This document shows, in pieces, positions 3,813 through 10,022 of a DNA stretch of 29,586 nucleotides. Source of the stretch: a virus. Below the pieces are notes generated by a model, which worked only from the letters and a program-made list of their open reading frames with translations, had not been told where the DNA came from and ran no database searches. The DNA lies in IMG/VR virus record IMGVR_UViG_3300026293_000038, positions 1 to 29,586 of that record, one strand, 5' to 3'. Each line of letters starts with the position of its first letter. The first letter of the stretch is position 1. The translations under genes and the position numbers were made by a program.

Positions 3813-4806
3813 CCCGCAATGGCTCGCCACGAAGCGGTATGTCCTCAGGCGGTACTTCCGGGAATGGATGATGCTTCCTGTCTCCGAGATCACGCCCGAG
3901 CTCGTGAAAAGGCGGGTCCTTGAGATCAAGCACGAAACGTCGCCCGAGGCCGCGAACAGGTACCTCAAGATCCTGCGGGCCGTGTTCAACGCGGCCGGCG
4001 CGCCCAATCCGACGGCCGGCATACCCTTCTTTCCCAGGATGGAGCAGCCGGCGGGCGAGTACGTTCCCACCGCCGCCGACATTAAGGCTCTGCTTCTCAA
4101 GGCCGACCCGGAGCTCAGGGCATACCTCGAGGTTTCGTATCACACCGCCGCCAGGCCTTTCGAGATCGCGCGCCTGGCATGGAAGGACGTGGACTTCGCC
4201 CGCGGGACGGTCACGCTCTGGACCCGCAAGAAGTCCAGGGACCGTTCCTGGACCCCTCGGGAGATCCCGATGAACGACACGCTCAGAAGGGCCCTTAGAC
4301 AGTTGAGGTCGCGGGAGGGCGAGCTTGTTTTTCCGAACCCCAGGACGGGGGCGGCCTACATGAGGCGTCCGAAGGCCCTGAAGACTCTCTGCCGGAAGGC
4401 CGGCATTCGGCCGTTCTGCTGGAGGGGCCTGAGAAAGGCGGCCGCGACCGAGATGCTTCGCGCCGGAGTTCCGGTCCCGGTGATCTCCAAGATCCTGGGA
4501 CACACGAACATCCAGACCACGATGATTTATCTGGGGGTGGACGACGACGCGATGCGCTGGGCGCTCGCGGCGCTCAACGGAATCGTCACGATCCCTTCGG
4601 GTCGGGACTGCAAATTTCCGGAGGACGAAAAAATTACCAGTGGATCGCCAGTGGAAGCGGCGAGGGCGGAAGGGGCCCCGGGACGGCCTCTTCCGTATCC
4701 CCGCGCCGCCGTTATGGAATCTCTGGTCGGGAAGGAGGGATTTGAACCCTCGACCTCATGCTCCCGAAGCCAGGCCGTAACTTCCCGAACCAAGCGAAAC
4801 AGCTGA
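3553..4806 (+). CDS. int: Tyrosine-recombinase integrase
   Basis: A 417-residue phage integrase. Residues 1-50 form a basic arm-DNA-binding region (WVWEFRLRGVRYN). Residues 65-150 form a core-binding SAM-like domain. Residues 170-335 are catalytic: Arg201 (TAARPFEIARL), a Lys near 226-227, Arg294 (RGLRKAAAT), His317 (LGHTNI) and nucleophile Tyr326 (MIYLGV). The box II His is replaced by Arg291. A ribosome site GGAGG (3542-3546) supports the start. The last 27 codons run through the tRNA-Pro core in the opposite sense, giving the familiar GKEGFEPSTS tail. Integration would therefore replace the C-terminal codons. It integrates and, with the upstream Xis-like protein, excises the phage genome. 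Confidence 0.95.
   Translation: MSVYRDARRKRNKWVWEFRLRGVRYNSPRGYSSRRRAEAAERAFRQALEAPAEPPPPAEPPVESTTPTTFLELATAAMRKWEEAAHDPQWLATKRYVLRRYFREWMMLPVSEITPELVKRRVLEIKHETSPEAANRYLKILRAVFNAAGAPNPTAGIPFFPRMEQPAGEYVPTAADIKALLLKADPELRAYLEVSYHTAARPFEIARLAWKDVDFARGTVTLWTRKKSRDRSWTPREIPMNDTLRRALRQLRSREGELVFPNPRTGAAYMRRPKALKTLCRKAGIRPFCWRGLRKAAATEMLRAGVPVPVISKILGHTNIQTTMIYLGVDDDAMRWALAALNGIVTIPSGRDCKFPEDEKITSGSPVEAARAEGAPGRPLPYPRAAVMESLVGKEGFEPSTSCSRSQAVTSRTKRNS
4633..4654 (+). repeat. Left arm-type integrase sites of attP
   Basis: Two tandem 11-bp units, ATTACCAGTGG and ATCGCCAGTGG, lie inside the end of int. The same pair recurs in the same orientation at 4885-4906 on the other side of the core, the arrangement expected of P and P' arm sites. 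Confidence 0.7.
4724..4770 (-). other. attP core: 3' half of tRNA-Pro(CGG)
   Basis: Read on the minus strand, this 47-bp segment holds the anticodon loop TTCGGGA (anticodon CGG), the 3' anticodon strand GCATG, variable loop AGGTC, T arm GAGGG-TTCAAAT-CCCTC, acceptor strand CTTCCCG, discriminator A and CCA. Phage attachment cores commonly match the 3' half of a tRNA gene so that integration restores it. The flanking arm sites and the overlapping int support this role. Confidence 0.75.
4724..4787 (-). pseudogene. Truncated tRNA-Pro(CGG) lacking D-arm 3' part and 5' anticodon strand
   Basis: CGGGAAG at 4781-4787 (minus) pairs perfectly with the acceptor strand CTTCCCG of the core. Between it and the anticodon loop are only about 12 bases (TTACGGCCTGGC). 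Compared with a normal tRNA-Pro, about 11-14 bases after CCTGG are missing, so no D arm or anticodon stem can form. A functional tRNA is unlikely. Confidence 0.6.
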
Positions 4807-5895: not shown

Positions 5896-6114
5896 ATGTA
5901 TTGCTGCGACGTCCTACTGTTCAACACATGCGACGGCGGAGAGTCCTGCGAATGTCGAAGCGTGGACGTGCGCGAGGCCGGCCGGAGAGTCTACACGCTC
6001 ATCGAGCGGTGCGATCGGCCGTACGTGGAACGCGGAGACAAAATCATGGTGACGGGCTCCAACGAACCTCTTACCGTCTGCCCATACTGCGGGGAGCGGG
6101 TGGCCGATGCGTGA
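5896..6114 (+). CDS. Small Cys-rich phage protein
   Basis: A 72-residue protein with Cys pairs at the N-terminus (YCCDVLL, GGESCECRS) and CPYCG near the C-terminus, suggesting a zinc site. Part of its coding sequence (6001-6046, IERCDRPYVERGDKI) is copied exactly at 6115-6160, where it is read in another frame as the start of the nuclease gene. It overlaps the nuclease start at 6107. Confidence 0.6.
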   Translation: MYCCDVLLFNTCDGGESCECRSVDVREAGRRVYTLIERCDRPYVERGDKIMVTGSNEPLTVCPYCGERVADA

Positions 6115-6160
6115 ATCGAGCGGTGCGATCGGCCGTACGTGGAACGCGGAGACAAAATCA
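6001..6160 (+). repeat. Exact 46-bp direct repeat, copies 114 bp apart
   Basis: Copies occupy 6001-6046 and 6115-6160 and are identical base for base, with flanks that differ at once. Copy 1 is inside the Cys-rich gene. Copy 2 straddles the beginning of the exonuclease gene in a different reading frame. Confidence 0.95.
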
Positions 6161-6724
6161 CTGCCCAGCGTAACCGAAGTCCTTCGACCATACCAGGATC
6201 TCCGGGCGGTCCCGCCAGACGCGCTCGAACACGCGGCCTGGAGAGGGACCGAGGTGCACAGGATCTGCTCCTGCGTCGCCCGCGGAGTGCCTTATCTGGG
6301 AGGCGTCCCCGAGGGTTGCGCCGGATATGTCCTTTCGTTCCAGGAGTGGTTCGGGTTTGCCGTCATATCGGTGCACCTGGTCGAGCAGGAGCTGGTCGAC
6401 ATGGAGCTAGGCTACCGGGGACGTCCCGACCTTATCGCCAGGCTCAGGGGAGATTCCGAAGCCGAGCTCACCCTGGTCGACTATAAGACCGCCAGGACGG
6501 TCTCCAGGATATGGAGGGGCCAGTTGGCCGCCTACAGGCGGCTTGCCGACAGGGCCGGCTATCCGGTCCTTCGGACTCTGGCCCTCAGACTGGATGAGAC
6601 CGGAGGGCCCGCAAAGGTAACGGAGTACACGGACCACAAGAGGGACTTCGCCGCCTTCCTGGCGGCCCTGACCGCCTACAAGTATTTCGTTCAAGACACG
6701 AAAAAAGGAGGTAAGGAACCATGA
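6107..6724 (+). CDS. PD-(D/E)XK phage exonuclease (RecB-like)
   Basis: A 205-residue nuclease of the RecB/PDDEXK type. It begins with LPSVTEVL, typical of phage family members. It then shows WRGTEVHRI, an upstream Glu (VEQELV), Asp108 in GRPDLI, the D-Y-K motif at 125-127 (LVDYKT) and Gln139-x-x-x-Tyr (GQLAAYR). These residues form the metal-dependent active site. It should resect DNA ends so that the downstream RecT-like protein can load, the pairing known from phage two-component recombination systems. Residues 4-18 are encoded by copy 2 of the 46-bp repeat, so the extreme N-terminus looks newly acquired. It overlaps the coiled-coil gene at ATGA (6721-6724). Confidence 0.8.
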   Translation: MRESSGAIGRTWNAETKSLPSVTEVLRPYQDLRAVPPDALEHAAWRGTEVHRICSCVARGVPYLGGVPEGCAGYVLSFQEWFGFAVISVHLVEQELVDMELGYRGRPDLIARLRGDSEAELTLVDYKTARTVSRIWRGQLAAYRRLADRAGYPVLRTLALRLDETGGPAKVTEYTDHKRDFAAFLAALTAYKYFVQDTKKGGKEP

Positions 6725-7419
6725 CACAACACGTCGATTTCATGGCTGGGTTGGAGACGGGGCAGAAGATCGACAGACGATCGAAACTCTTGGATATGGA
6801 GGCTGTAAAGGCCAGGTTTGCTCCATACAGCGAGGCGATCGACCTCATGTTCCGGGAGGCCCGCGAGCATGAGGTCCGGGACGAGGAAAGCCTCAAGGCC
6901 GCGATCGCGATGGCCGGGCAGGCGCAGGCCCTGGAGAAAAAGATAGACGCGCAGAGGAAAGCGATCGTCGAGGAACCGAACCGGTTCGTGAAATCCGTCA
7001 ACGGCTTCGCTTCCGATTTCCTGGGCAGGCTCAAGGAAATTGTCCAGGATCTCAAAAAGAAAATCTCCGATTACCAGTACGCCCAGGAGCTCGCCAGACG
7101 CGAGGCCGAGCGGAAGGCGCAGGAGGAGGCCAAGCTCCTCCAGGAGAAGCTCAACCGGGATGCGGAAAGCAAGGGGGTCCAGGCCCCTGTGGTGCCCGCT
7201 CCGGTGCTTCCGGAGCCTCCCAGAGTGACCCGGACGGAAACCGGAACGAGCGCTCATATCAGAAAGGAATGGACGTTTCGGGTTGTGGAACCCGCACAGG
7301 TCCCGAGAGAGTATTGCGTGCCTGACGAGCGGCTGATCCGTCAGGCCGTGAAGATGGGCGTCCGAGAAATCCCTGGAGTAGAAATCTACGAGGAAGCCAG
7401 GACCGTGCTGAGAACATGA
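6721..7419 (+). CDS. Coiled-coil recombination-associated phage protein
   Basis: A 232-residue protein. Residues 20-155 are strongly helical and charged (EAIDLMFREAREHEV, ELARREAERKAQEEAKLLQEKL), then a Pro-rich linker (VVPAPVLPEPP), then a compact C-terminal domain (HIRKEWTFRVVEPAQVPREY ... IPGVEIYEE). This C-terminal pattern is common in phage genes next to RecT or ssDNA-annealing systems. It lies between exonuclease and RecT with a 14-base gap, so it likely assists them. No catalytic motif is seen. Confidence 0.65.
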   Translation: MTQHVDFMAGLETGQKIDRRSKLLDMEAVKARFAPYSEAIDLMFREAREHEVRDEESLKAAIAMAGQAQALEKKIDAQRKAIVEEPNRFVKSVNGFASDFLGRLKEIVQDLKKKISDYQYAQELARREAERKAQEEAKLLQEKLNRDAESKGVQAPVVPAPVLPEPPRVTRTETGTSAHIRKEWTFRVVEPAQVPREYCVPDERLIRQAVKMGVREIPGVEIYEEARTVLRT

Positions 7420-7432
7420 GGGGAAACAAAAG

Positions 7433-8383
7433 ATGCAGACGAGAACGGAGCTCACGGCACAGAAGGTTAAGACGATCCGCGCCCTGCTTACGGACGAGCG
7501 CGTGAAGAAACAACTCCTGATGGCGATCCCGAAGCACCTGTCCGTCGACCGCCTGCTCAGGGTGGCGATCACGTCCATACAACGCAACCCGGCACTCCTT
7601 GAATGCACGCCACAAAGCCTTCTGGCTTGCGTGATGACCGCGGCGCAGCTCGGCCTGGAGCCCGACGGAATTACCGGGCAGGCCTACATGGTCCCGTACA
7701 GGAACAGCAAGAAGCCCGGAAAACCCATGGAGGCGCAGCTCATTCCCGGCTACCGCGGGCTCCTGGCCCTCACGAGGCGCAGTGGGGAAGTCAGGAGCGT
7801 GCAGGCTCACGTCGTCTACTCGAACGACCGGTTCGAGCTGCGCTACGGGCTCGACGAGAAGCTCGAGCACGTGCCGGCCGACGGGGACCGTGGGGAGCCG
7901 AGGGGCGCATACGTGATTTTCCGGTACAAGGACGGGTCGCATTCGTTCGACTACATGAGCAGGGAAGACATCGAGAAGGTACGACAGCGCTCGAAATCGC
8001 CCGCCGAAGGCCCGTGGGCCACGGACTGGGACGAAATGGCGAAAAAGACCGTGATCCGCCGGCACGCGAAGCTAGCTCCGATGTCCGTCGAATTCGCCAA
8101 GGCGGTGGCTCTTGAGGACAGGTTCCATGCCGGAGAGTCACAAATGGACCTGCTTACCGAGGGAGAACAGGTGATCGAGCCGGAACAGCCCCTTCCGGAG
8201 CCTTGTTTCGAAGAGCTCGTTGCCGAAGCCGCAAAGGGAGACGGGGCGATCTTACAGCAACTCGAAAAATTCGTCGCAGTCACGGCGGAGGCGAACGGGA
8301 TCGGTCCGGAGGAACTCAAGGAGACGGCTGCCAGGAATTTCGAAGAGTTTTGGCACGCATTCCACCAATGGATGCAGAAGTAG
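7433..8383 (+). CDS. recT: RecT-family single-strand annealing protein
   Basis: A 316-residue RecT homologue. The conserved core covers residues 25-230: the helical start (LPKHL-like, IPKHLSVDRLLRVAITSIQRNP), LLACVMTAAQLGLEPDGITGQAYMVPY, AQLIPGYRGLLALTRRSGEVRSVQAHVVYSNDRFE, and WDEMAKKTVIRRHAKLAPMS. These are standard RecT signatures. The acidic tail (230-316) differs more. It anneals complementary single strands made by the exonuclease, for phage recombination and circularisation. Weak ribosome site (AGGGGAAACAAAAG). Confidence 0.95.
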   Translation: MQTRTELTAQKVKTIRALLTDERVKKQLLMAIPKHLSVDRLLRVAITSIQRNPALLECTPQSLLACVMTAAQLGLEPDGITGQAYMVPYRNSKKPGKPMEAQLIPGYRGLLALTRRSGEVRSVQAHVVYSNDRFELRYGLDEKLEHVPADGDRGEPRGAYVIFRYKDGSHSFDYMSREDIEKVRQRSKSPAEGPWATDWDEMAKKTVIRRHAKLAPMSVEFAKAVALEDRFHAGESQMDLLTEGEQVIEPEQPLPEPCFEELVAEAAKGDGAILQQLEKFVAVTAEANGIGPEELKETAARNFEEFWHAFHQWMQK

Positions 8384-8393
8384 GCGGCGAAAA

Positions 8394-9461
8394 ATGAAAA
8401 AGTGCCCGGCGATACGCTTTTACCCCGGCGACTGGCTGAGGGACCTTAACCTGAGCGCGTGCAGCCTCGCCGCACGCGGACTGTGGATCGGCATGCTGTG
8501 CGTCATGCATCAATCACCGAGGTACGGCTACTTCCTTATAGGGGACAGAGCGCCCACCGTGGACGAAGCCGCGCGTATACTCGGCTGTACTGCTGACGAA
8601 TACTCCAACTGTCTTGCGGAACTTGAGCGAGCCTCGGTACTTTCCCGAACAGAGGACGGTACGATTTTTTGCCGGAGGATGGTACGTGATGAAGCGAAAC
8701 GGAAGCAATGGCGTACGCGGCAGGAACGTCACAGAAGCGCTAAGAATGCCACCAGCGTGACGTCACGCACCTTGTCACGCTCTTGTCACGCTGTTGTCAC
8801 GCCACTTGTCACGCCCTTGTCACGCCCTCCTCTTTCCTCCTCTCCCTCTTCCTCTCCCCCTATAACCCCCTCTTCTTCTCCTTCTTCTCCTTACTCCCCT
8901 TCTTCCATCTTCTCTTCTAGAAATAAATTAATAGATAGTACTGGTACGGCGGAGGAAGAAAGGGGGGGTATGGGGGGGAAAGGAACCCAGCACATAACGG
9001 CAGACACATGTCACGCTACGGCAGGGGGAGGAATCCCCCTGCAACCCCCTCTTGTCCCGTCCGATCGTCATCGGACGGGACCGTCGCCCGTATCCGCGCC
9101 GGGTGAATCTGAGCAACTCATTCTGGTTGAGCCTCCACACGAGCCCCAACCTGTCATCACGATACCCGTCCTGCCAGGCAAATCCGGCCAAGCGGAGTTT
9201 GGGGTCTGCCGGGACCAGGTGGATGAATGGACAAGCCTGTTTCCCGCCGTCGACGTCGAGCAAGAGCTGCGCACGATGCGTGCCTGGTGCCTGGCAAATC
9301 CTGATCGGCGCAAGACCAGCAGGGGTGTCATGCGGTTCATCACGGGCTGGTTGGCCAGGGAGCAGAATCGGGCCGGCAGGCAGCGCGCGGATCCGTTCAG
9401 GAAGACGGGCTTCGGGTTTCTCACGGCGACATTCGGCGGAGAGCCAGAAACGGAGGATTGA
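8394..9461 (+). CDS. Phage replication initiator-like protein (lambda O type role)
   Basis: A 355-residue protein starting 10 bases after recT. Residues 5-110 form a conserved N-terminal region (RFYPGDWLRDLNLSACSLAARGLWIGML, then a winged-helix-like region VDEAARILGC). Residues 120-185 are a Ser/Pro/Thr low-complexity linker coded by the iteron and pyrimidine tract. A C-terminal domain near 270-325 (VDEWTSLFPAVDVEQELRTMRAW ... RGVMRFITGWL) is of the kind that contacts the helicase or loader. The frame is open upstream to 8220, but the ATG at 8394 matches the start of homology. The repeats inside its own gene, as in lambda O, support an initiator role. The biochemical function is inferred. Confidence 0.7.
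   Translation: MKKCPAIRFYPGDWLRDLNLSACSLAARGLWIGMLCVMHQSPRYGYFLIGDRAPTVDEAARILGCTADEYSNCLAELERASVLSRTEDGTIFCRRMVRDEAKRKQWRTRQERHRSAKNATSVTSRTLSRSCHAVVTPLVTPLSRPPLSSSPSSSPPITPSSSPSSPYSPSSIFSSRNKLIDSTGTAEEERGGMGGKGTQHITADTCHATAGGGIPLQPPLVPSDRHRTGPSPVSAPGESEQLILVEPPHEPQPVITIPVLPGKSGQAEFGVCRDQVDEWTSLFPAVDVEQELRTMRAWCLANPDRRKTSRGVMRFITGWLAREQNRAGRQRADPFRKTGFGFLTATFGGEPETED
8759..8825 (+). repeat. Iteron array, consensus CTTGTCACGC
   Basis: Six copies start at 8759 (GACGTCACGC), 8771, 8782, 8793 (GTTGTCACGC), 8805 and 8816. Spacings are 12, 11, 11, 12 and 11 bp, about one helical turn. A further CATGTCACGC lies at 9007-9016. The phased array suggests binding sites for the initiator encoded by the same gene. 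Confidence 0.75.
9021..9079. other. Two strong hairpins at the downstream side of the origin
   Basis: Hairpin 1: GCAGGGGG (9021-9028) pairs with CCCCCTGC (9035-9042), loop of 6. Hairpin 2: CCCGTCCGAT (9056-9065) pairs with ATCGGACGGG (9070-9079), loop of 4. Both are perfect. They could be primosome or single-strand initiation structures. Confidence 0.6.
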
Positions 9462-9464
9462 GGC

Positions 9465-10022
9465 ATGGAGATGAGCAGGTTTCGCTGGGGAATGAATGAG
9501 CTCTACGCTTACTACGGGCGGAAGCCGCTCACGGACGCCCAGGAGCGCGTCTACTGGGAAGCCGTCTGCCGGTACTCCGACCGCGCCTGGACGGAGACCG
9601 TGACGAACCTCATGCGATGCACGAAGCCCTTGGCCGGCAATTTCCCGAGCCCGCAGGAACTGCGGACGACATGCCAGAACATGCAGGACTCAAGAGAAGG
9701 GCCGACCGGAGAAGAGGTACAGGAACATTACTGTTCCGAGTGCGGCGGACGCGGCTTCCTGGAAAGCTACGCTGCGGATGATCCCATGCAGTACACGTCG
9801 GTCGTCAGGTGCGGCCATTGCGAGAACTGGCGCAGGCGTTTCGGCCCAACGCTTCCGATCCGCACGAGGCGGCAATTGGAGGCCCGCGGCAGGATCCTGA
9901 CCCGGGGCGGCTACCGCAGGGAGGACTGGGAAGAATGGCTCGAGCTCGGGTGGAGAGATCTCACTCCGCCAACGGATGGGACAGGGCCGCTTACGCGGAT
10001 CTTGGAGACAATTGGAGCCTGA
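9465..10022 (+). CDS. Helicase-loader-like zinc protein
   Basis: A 185-residue protein with GGAGG (9452-9456) eight bases before the ATG. Residues 8-70 (NELYAYYGRKPLTDAQERVYWEAV ... GNFPSPQELR) resemble the N-terminal domain of phage helicase loaders such as the G40P-loader family. A zinc ribbon follows: CSECG at 90-94 and CGHC at 116-119. The C-terminus is Trp/Arg-rich. Its position just after the initiator-like gene fits a loader (lambda P role). The zinc ribbon is clear; the loader role is inferred. Confidence 0.6.
   Translation: MEMSRFRWGMNELYAYYGRKPLTDAQERVYWEAVCRYSDRAWTETVTNLMRCTKPLAGNFPSPQELRTTCQNMQDSREGPTGEEVQEHYCSECGGRGFLESYAADDPMQYTSVVRCGHCENWRRRFGPTLPIRTRRQLEARGRILTRGGYRREDWEEWLELGWRDLTPPTDGTGPLTRILETIGA

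Follow-up and report, generated by a model that had tools for sequence, protein, structure and literature searches.

The replication origin of phage lambda lies in the middle of gene O and consists of 4-6 iterons followed by a strand-opening region (PMC7466680, PMC6022878). The O protein of Stx phages has 13 extra residues, and the added iterons just lengthen the protein hinge (PMC7466680). In the RepA_N protein of pSK41, the winged-helix N-domain binds four boxes that are central in its own gene, and the central domain encoded by the origin is only a dispensable linker (PMC5703833). Furthermore, in the hybrid pPR9 the N-domain and origin were exchanged as a block, and the incoming block resembles a phage replication protein (PMC5703833). 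In Francisella phage KIRK, a putative lambda-like origin comprising four repeats has been described within a replication gene (PMC7924643). Here, we analysed a 29,586-bp linear virus record (IMG/VR record IMGVR_UViG_3300026293_000038, called the window below), which carries repressor, integrase, exonuclease, RecT, and structural genes. Judged from its sequence, the segment 8755-9081, located in the hinge-coding part of a replication initiator gene, very probably is, or contains, the replication origin of this temperate phage. The anatomy of the segment is non-random and recurs in other initiator genes, where the type of iteron is coupled to the type of N-domain.

All elements of the segment lie within one open reading frame (ORF) of 355 amino acids (aa), in the order given below. 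A sequence check bore out the coordinates, order, and single-gene location reported for them in a first-pass annotation.

8394..9461, plus strand: replication initiator (replisome organizer-like) gene, 355 aa (ORF; phrog_13246, expectation value (E) 1.9e-7)
8394..8756, plus strand: N-terminal domain, predicted winged helix, proposed to bind the iterons (AlphaFold2, Foldseek, BFVD)
8755..8768, no strand assigned: 14-bp palindrome GCGTGACGTCACGC, with iteron 1 as one half and an inverted copy as the other
8762..8825, plus strand: six GTCACGC iterons, with starts at 8762, 8774, 8785, 8796, 8808, and 8819 (steps 12/11/11/12/11)
8825..8918, plus strand: pyrimidine tract (89/94 C/T), proposed strand-opening region together with the AT block
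8921..8937, no strand assigned: AT block AAATAAATTAATAGATA, proposed first melting site
8951..8985, plus strand: purine-rich segment with two G7 runs (8962-8968 and 8972-8978)
9010..9016, plus strand: isolated seventh GTCACGC (ATGTCACGC)
9021..9042, no strand assigned: perfect hairpin, 9-bp stem (9021-9029/9034-9042), 4-base loop
9054..9081, no strand assigned: perfect hairpin, 12-bp stem (9054-9065/9070-9081), 4-base loop
9156..9458, plus strand: helical C-terminal domain with local matches of 46-49% to other initiators, proposed as helicase-loader or primosome contact

The six GTCACGC copies are packed into 64 bp, and five of the six iterons are TTGTCACGC, identical over 9 bp. The phased array with 11-12 bp steps described in the first-pass annotation is real, but the repeat given for it, CTTGTCACGC, is exact in only 4/6 iterons; one more has one mismatch, and one is weaker. 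The codon phases of the iterons are, in order, 2, 2, 1, 0, 0, 2, and the encoded peptides are SR, HA, and VT. No second multi-phase 7-mer array of this kind was found in the whole 29.6-kb window. The repeats could instead be a protein-level feature, either a selected peptide repeat or a low-complexity hinge, and the hinge is indeed of low complexity in nearly all relatives. Against this, all three codon phases are used and give three peptides, 11-bp steps are no multiple of three, and across 2000 codon-shuffle trials no multi-frame 7-mer had more than 3 copies, a number attained in 23 trials, compared with the 6 observed. A protein-level repeat as the sole explanation is ruled out by this use of codon phases, and we regard a protein-level origin of the repeats in any form as scarcely credible. 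The earlier view that DNA function shapes the low-complexity peptide holds, given repeats in all three phases and the differing peptides (VTP, LSR, or CHA) that the one heptamer encodes in relatives.

The array also bears on whether the origin could have decayed or lost its activity within a piece of a defective prophage. Decay would suit the record, a linear 29.6-kb fragment of uncertain completeness, but the long ORFs for initiator, recombination, repressor, integrase, and structural proteins are unbroken, and five iterons have kept their identity over 9 bp. We therefore consider decay very improbable.

Behind the iterons, the pyrimidine tract (94 bp long, not 95 as first reported) is the top pyrimidine segment of the window, and its trinucleotide entropy is 3.62, compared with 5.26 for the rest of the gene. 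The top AT segment of the window falls within the AT block, and the two G7 runs are its only runs of seven. Both of the perfect hairpins noted previously exist, with stems of 9 and 12 bp rather than 8 and 10, and the 12-bp stem is the longest perfect stem in the window (loops 3-8; codon-shuffle p 0.005). A 20-bp direct repeat (90% identical; TCCCCCTATAACCCCCTCTT at 8855-8874 and TCCCCCTGCAACCCCCTCTT at 9034-9053) joins the pyrimidine tract to the first hairpin. GC skew, which had been proposed as a check, tracks gene orientation and dips at the pyrimidine tract only, and is thus uninformative as an origin mark.

We compared the 90 bp located 3' of the iterons with the rest of the gene in 49 iteron genes (48 relatives and the window). 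These 90 bp have lower trinucleotide entropy (4.86 vs 5.16, p 1e-6), weaker stacking and duplex stability (p 4e-9), and higher AT content (46 vs 41%, p 1e-6); as a point against the origin reading, the statistics count related genes as independent, which makes the p-values optimistic. The tract sequences vary among genes (CTTCTT, AGAAGAG, GATACAGATACA, ACCAAACCTAACC). Since they differ, the common property is easy opening and simplicity, not sequence. The best downstream stem in the 49 genes is 5.8 compared with 5.0 in shuffles (p 8e-4), and only 6/49 genes stand out individually. Hairpins as a general or defining element were rejected because this enrichment is weak; that they are not constant also counts against the origin reading.

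The initiator consists of a conserved domain (residues 1-121), a low-complexity part (122 to about 250), and a conserved C-terminal part. Its N-domain is homologous to PHROG 13246, named 'replisome organizer', and is 43% identical to gp56 of Pseudanabaena phage Pam1. The C-domain shares 46% identity with the Ruminococcus phage phiRgIBDN1 replisome organizer. The AlphaFold2 model of the N-domain (50 sequences) is winged-helix-like, with a predicted local distance difference test score (pLDDT) of 91.4. Its top Foldseek match in the PDB was 4pta, 'Structure of MDR initiator' (E 3.7e-3; template modelling score (TM) 0.51, borderline), which we take to be the pSK41-type RepA domain. CRP-type winged helices followed, and 5kbj 'Rep-DNA complex' and 4pql 'N-terminal domain of DNA binding protein' were within the top ten. 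This borderline match of a model would favour the fold class over a specific kinship. In BFVD, the N-domain matched DUF1376 and Phage_rep_org_N proteins with TM of about 0.65. The C-domain model (4 sequences) reached a moderate pLDDT of 77 and no fold match in the PDB; RecA matches in its structure search were rejected as artefacts of tandem RecA chains. We propose that the C-domain is a helicase-loader or primosome contact. A query of the peptide VTPLSRDCHA... against phages gave nothing useful.

The same heptamer occurs in other phage initiators. Viral-contig DNA was scanned for three GTCACGC at 11-12 bp steps, with one permuted (reversed) heptamer as control. Phased GTCACGC was found in at least 119 viral contigs, compared with 24 in a complete scan for the control. 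Among the matches listed, 100 were unique; spacing other than 12/12 was seen in 66 of these, steps of 11 and 12 were combined in 24, and two or more codon phases were used in 71, whereas mixed spacing was found in 0/21 control matches. Of the array-spanning ORFs among the matches listed, 37 group into one large N-domain cluster and 7 into a DUF1376 cluster. The others form small clusters or are singletons, and some singletons are not initiators. Ten diverse array genes were scanned, and all ten match phage proteins. Nine match replication PHROGs (named replication initiation, replisome organizer, primosomal, DnaD-like, or O-like), and the tenth, L177, matches unnamed PHROGs only, yet is an N-domain relative of the window initiator. 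The array lies behind the N-domain, typically near residue 110-180, and before the C-terminal domain. Its carriers include initiator families with sequence-unlinked N-domains, DUF1376 among them. Window-type relatives found by protein alone also contain GTCACGC copies (L392, 6; L408, 4; L434 and L439, 3 each; L373 and L433, 2 each). This recurrence at the same place in relatives and in unrelated initiator families, together with the replisome organizer match, agrees with the original placement of the origin inside the initiator gene. We propose a class with at least three GTCACGC at 11-12 bp steps, in at least two phases, directly behind an initiator N-domain; the window has 6 copies in 3 phases.

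A bacterial genome scan for the triple heptamer was dropped as evidence, as 85/119 matches were 12/12-spaced and mostly one-frame repeats in ordinary genes. A few multi-phase bacterial matches are phage-like initiators, from Brevibacillus borstelensis (L326), Aeriscardovia aeriphila (L300), and a Thermosynechococcaceae metagenome-assembled genome (L265). In other viral contigs (L022, L030, L040, L050), tandem TTGTCACGC at 9-bp steps forms seemingly intergenic clusters, and the heptamer may be a binding site outside initiator genes too.

Initiators often autoregulate through their iterons. The repeats could accordingly be operators that let the initiator, or a phage regulator, repress or time its own operon, with replication starting elsewhere, and the intergenic heptamer clusters (e.g. 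in L022, L030, and L050) fit such a role. However, the array lies about 370 bp into the gene, far from a promoter position, it adjoins a strand-opening-like tract, and many unrelated initiator genes have it at the corresponding position. We consider operators improbable, if the best of the alternatives to an origin.

We also surveyed two families without selection for iterons, each gathered by protein patterns alone (65 genes each). In the MAWIESHQ family, cross-frame repeats were found in 29/65 genes (p<=0.01, codon shuffles), with GTCACG as the most frequent core, besides GACGTC, GTAACG, CACGTG, ACGTGC, and others. In the window's family, 11/65 genes contain such repeats at the same threshold, with the cores GTCACG and AAGCAA. 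GTCACG is the top 6-mer in both families (20/130 genes), and the next unrelated core is found in 7. Furthermore, phiRgIBDN1 contains TGTCAACC at 11-bp steps, and a GTCAACC scan yields more initiator-like genes of that style. At the tract position of many window-type initiators (L381, L389, L433, L439, L447, and others), we observed a 7-bp simple repeat, (CAGAAGC)n, which is read in three frames and encodes the peptide QKPEARS, another DNA-driven peptide. The N-domain families are connected by single-linkage BLAST and by fold search; a profile-profile comparison of two N-domain alignments, both small, gave a probability of 21%.

To these findings we add the coupling between iteron type and N-domain. 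In the MAWIESHQ family, L455 (GTCAC) and L485 (GACGTC) are 90% identical in the C-domain and 62% in the N-domain, and L452 and L514 show the same pattern (77% and 61%). Conversely, L485 and L514, which both use GACGTC, are 85% identical in the N-domain and 70% in the C-domain. DNA identity between L455 and L485 ranges over 50-73% along the N-domain, drops to 45% at the iterons, and recovers to 72-87% immediately past them. In this family, iterons and N-domain thus behave as an exchangeable cassette. That they move together is expected if the N-domain reads the iterons, a reading that the sequences support but do not prove. Columns 62, 71, 73, 99, and 107 (L452 numbering) are candidates for the N-domain positions that would set the specificity. 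The coupling bears on whether the repeats are bound not by the initiator but by another protein, of the host or of the phage, for instance as a partition, recombination, or packaging signal. Such a protein would suit a heptamer common to phages with different N-domains. Against this, the iteron type switches with the N-domain while the C-domain is unchanged, and the families have the winged-helix fold in common, so one protein fold can account for the common heptamer. We give another binding protein a low probability, ranking it ahead of decay and behind operators.

Several further observations weigh against an origin in this segment. By the codon-shuffle test, 53/65 window-type N-domain homologues have no significant cross-frame repeat, and Pam1 and L122 are without GTCACGC arrays. 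Homologues that lack the iterons while replicating from elsewhere had been named in the first-pass annotation as the finding that would speak against its proposal. The first half is what we found, as many N-domain homologues are without GTCACGC iterons; nothing points to replication from another site in these, and other cross-frame repeats occur in some of them. Linkage alone could also hold neighbouring iterons and N-domain together, and the iteron-binding role of the N-domain is a prediction from its model and co-segregation.

Taken together, we infer that iteron binding, unwinding, helicase recruitment, and the start of replication take place at 8755-9081. The N-terminal winged helix would bind one GTCACGC iteron next to another, all in helical phase, and thereby strain the DNA, and the neighbouring pyrimidine tract and AT block would then open. 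The C-terminal domain, probably together with the product of 9465-10022, would recruit the host replicative helicase. The hinge need only be a flexible linker, so DNA selection would shape it and the iterons may use all three frames. The position of strand opening and any role of the G7 runs and hairpins are put forward on the same footing.

It also seems reasonably probable that winged-helix initiators in general (DUF1376, Phage_rep_org_N, PHROG 9474/2509/13246, and others) hold origins in their hinge DNA as codon-phase-neutral iterons, with GTCACGC the commonest of a few cores. N-domain and iterons would move between phages as one cassette, whatever the C-domain, and origin specificity (compatibility) could thus be exchanged with helicase recruitment left intact. 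A literature search, in which many journals were not covered, found no description of GTCACGC-type iterons in phage initiators, and the general pattern is likely, though not certain, to be novel. Most temperate phages have no mapped origin. Should the pattern hold, sequence alone could reveal the origin and the recognition site of the initiator in a great many phages, by the rule that a single heptamer recurs in several codon phases between the initiator's two domains. This would be a clear example of protein sequence giving way to DNA function, and would explain odd peptides such as VTPLSRDCHA, DTDTDT, and REEKRREEK in annotated phage proteins. Natural matched initiator/iteron pairs would help in working out a recognition code, and a rule for prophage co-residence or interference is possible.

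The neighbouring genes of interest are as follows.

6107..6724, plus strand: PD-(D/E)XK exonuclease (Pfam PDDEXK_1, E 4.3e-6; phrog_298 exonuclease)
7433..8383, plus strand: RecT single-strand annealing protein (Pfam RecT, E 4.8e-53)
9465..10022, plus strand: 185-aa Cys-rich protein in helicase-loader position (by position only)

The 185-aa protein, encoded directly behind the initiator gene, has a zinc-ribbon-like CxxC pattern. It has no family match in Pfam or PHROGs and no relative in 50,697 phage records, and its position makes it a candidate for a new helicase loader. Between the exonuclease and RecT genes, 6721-7419 encodes a coiled-coil-like 232-aa protein with a weak phrog_10477 exonuclease match, which may be part of the recombination module. 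Beside the 3' end of the integrase gene, 46 bp at 4725-4770 (minus strand, GCTTCGGGAGCATGAGGTCGAGGGTTCAAATCCCTCCTTCCCGACC) equal the 3' half of a tRNA-Pro-like tRNA. ARAGORN found no whole tRNA there, and the stretch is probably the phage attachment site. A host search through the terminase found relatives scattered over many phyla, and no host was assigned.

Among known systems, the window resembles lambda in that its iterons too are inside the initiator gene. Lambda iterons are 18-19 bp inverted repeats, whereas the window has direct repeats of 7-9 bp that are not palindromic and recur every 11-12 bp, and only copy 1 shares in a palindrome. The window has no A-tracts and has an adjoining pyrimidine tract. 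The adjacent AT-rich region of lambda is about 39 bp, compared with a 17-bp AT block in the window, separated from the iterons by the pyrimidine tract. Searches of the window protein gave no match to Phage_rep_O in Pfam (E 0.1) or to an O-like family in PHROGs (E 0.01). The claim that iterons and hairpins are distinct from those of lambda is one we share, but the iterons are widely common rather than peculiar to this phage. KIRK, likened to the window by description only, is a low-GC phage with an AT-rich region and another gene family.

The window resembles RepA_N in its winged-helix N-domain (a borderline fold match) and in boxes central in the gene, although it has no Pfam RepA_N match at E 0.1. 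DUF1376, Phage_rep_org_N, and DnaD-like PHROG organizers have the same layout and fold as the window, and several have GTCACGC iterons. They differ in their sequence-unlinked N-domains, and other members use the GACGTC, GTAACG, and CACGTG types, or TGTCAACC in phiRgIBDN1. As far as comparison allows, and although it lacks both the lambda iteron form and an O or RepA_N family match, the window origin would work as those of lambda and RepA_N do.
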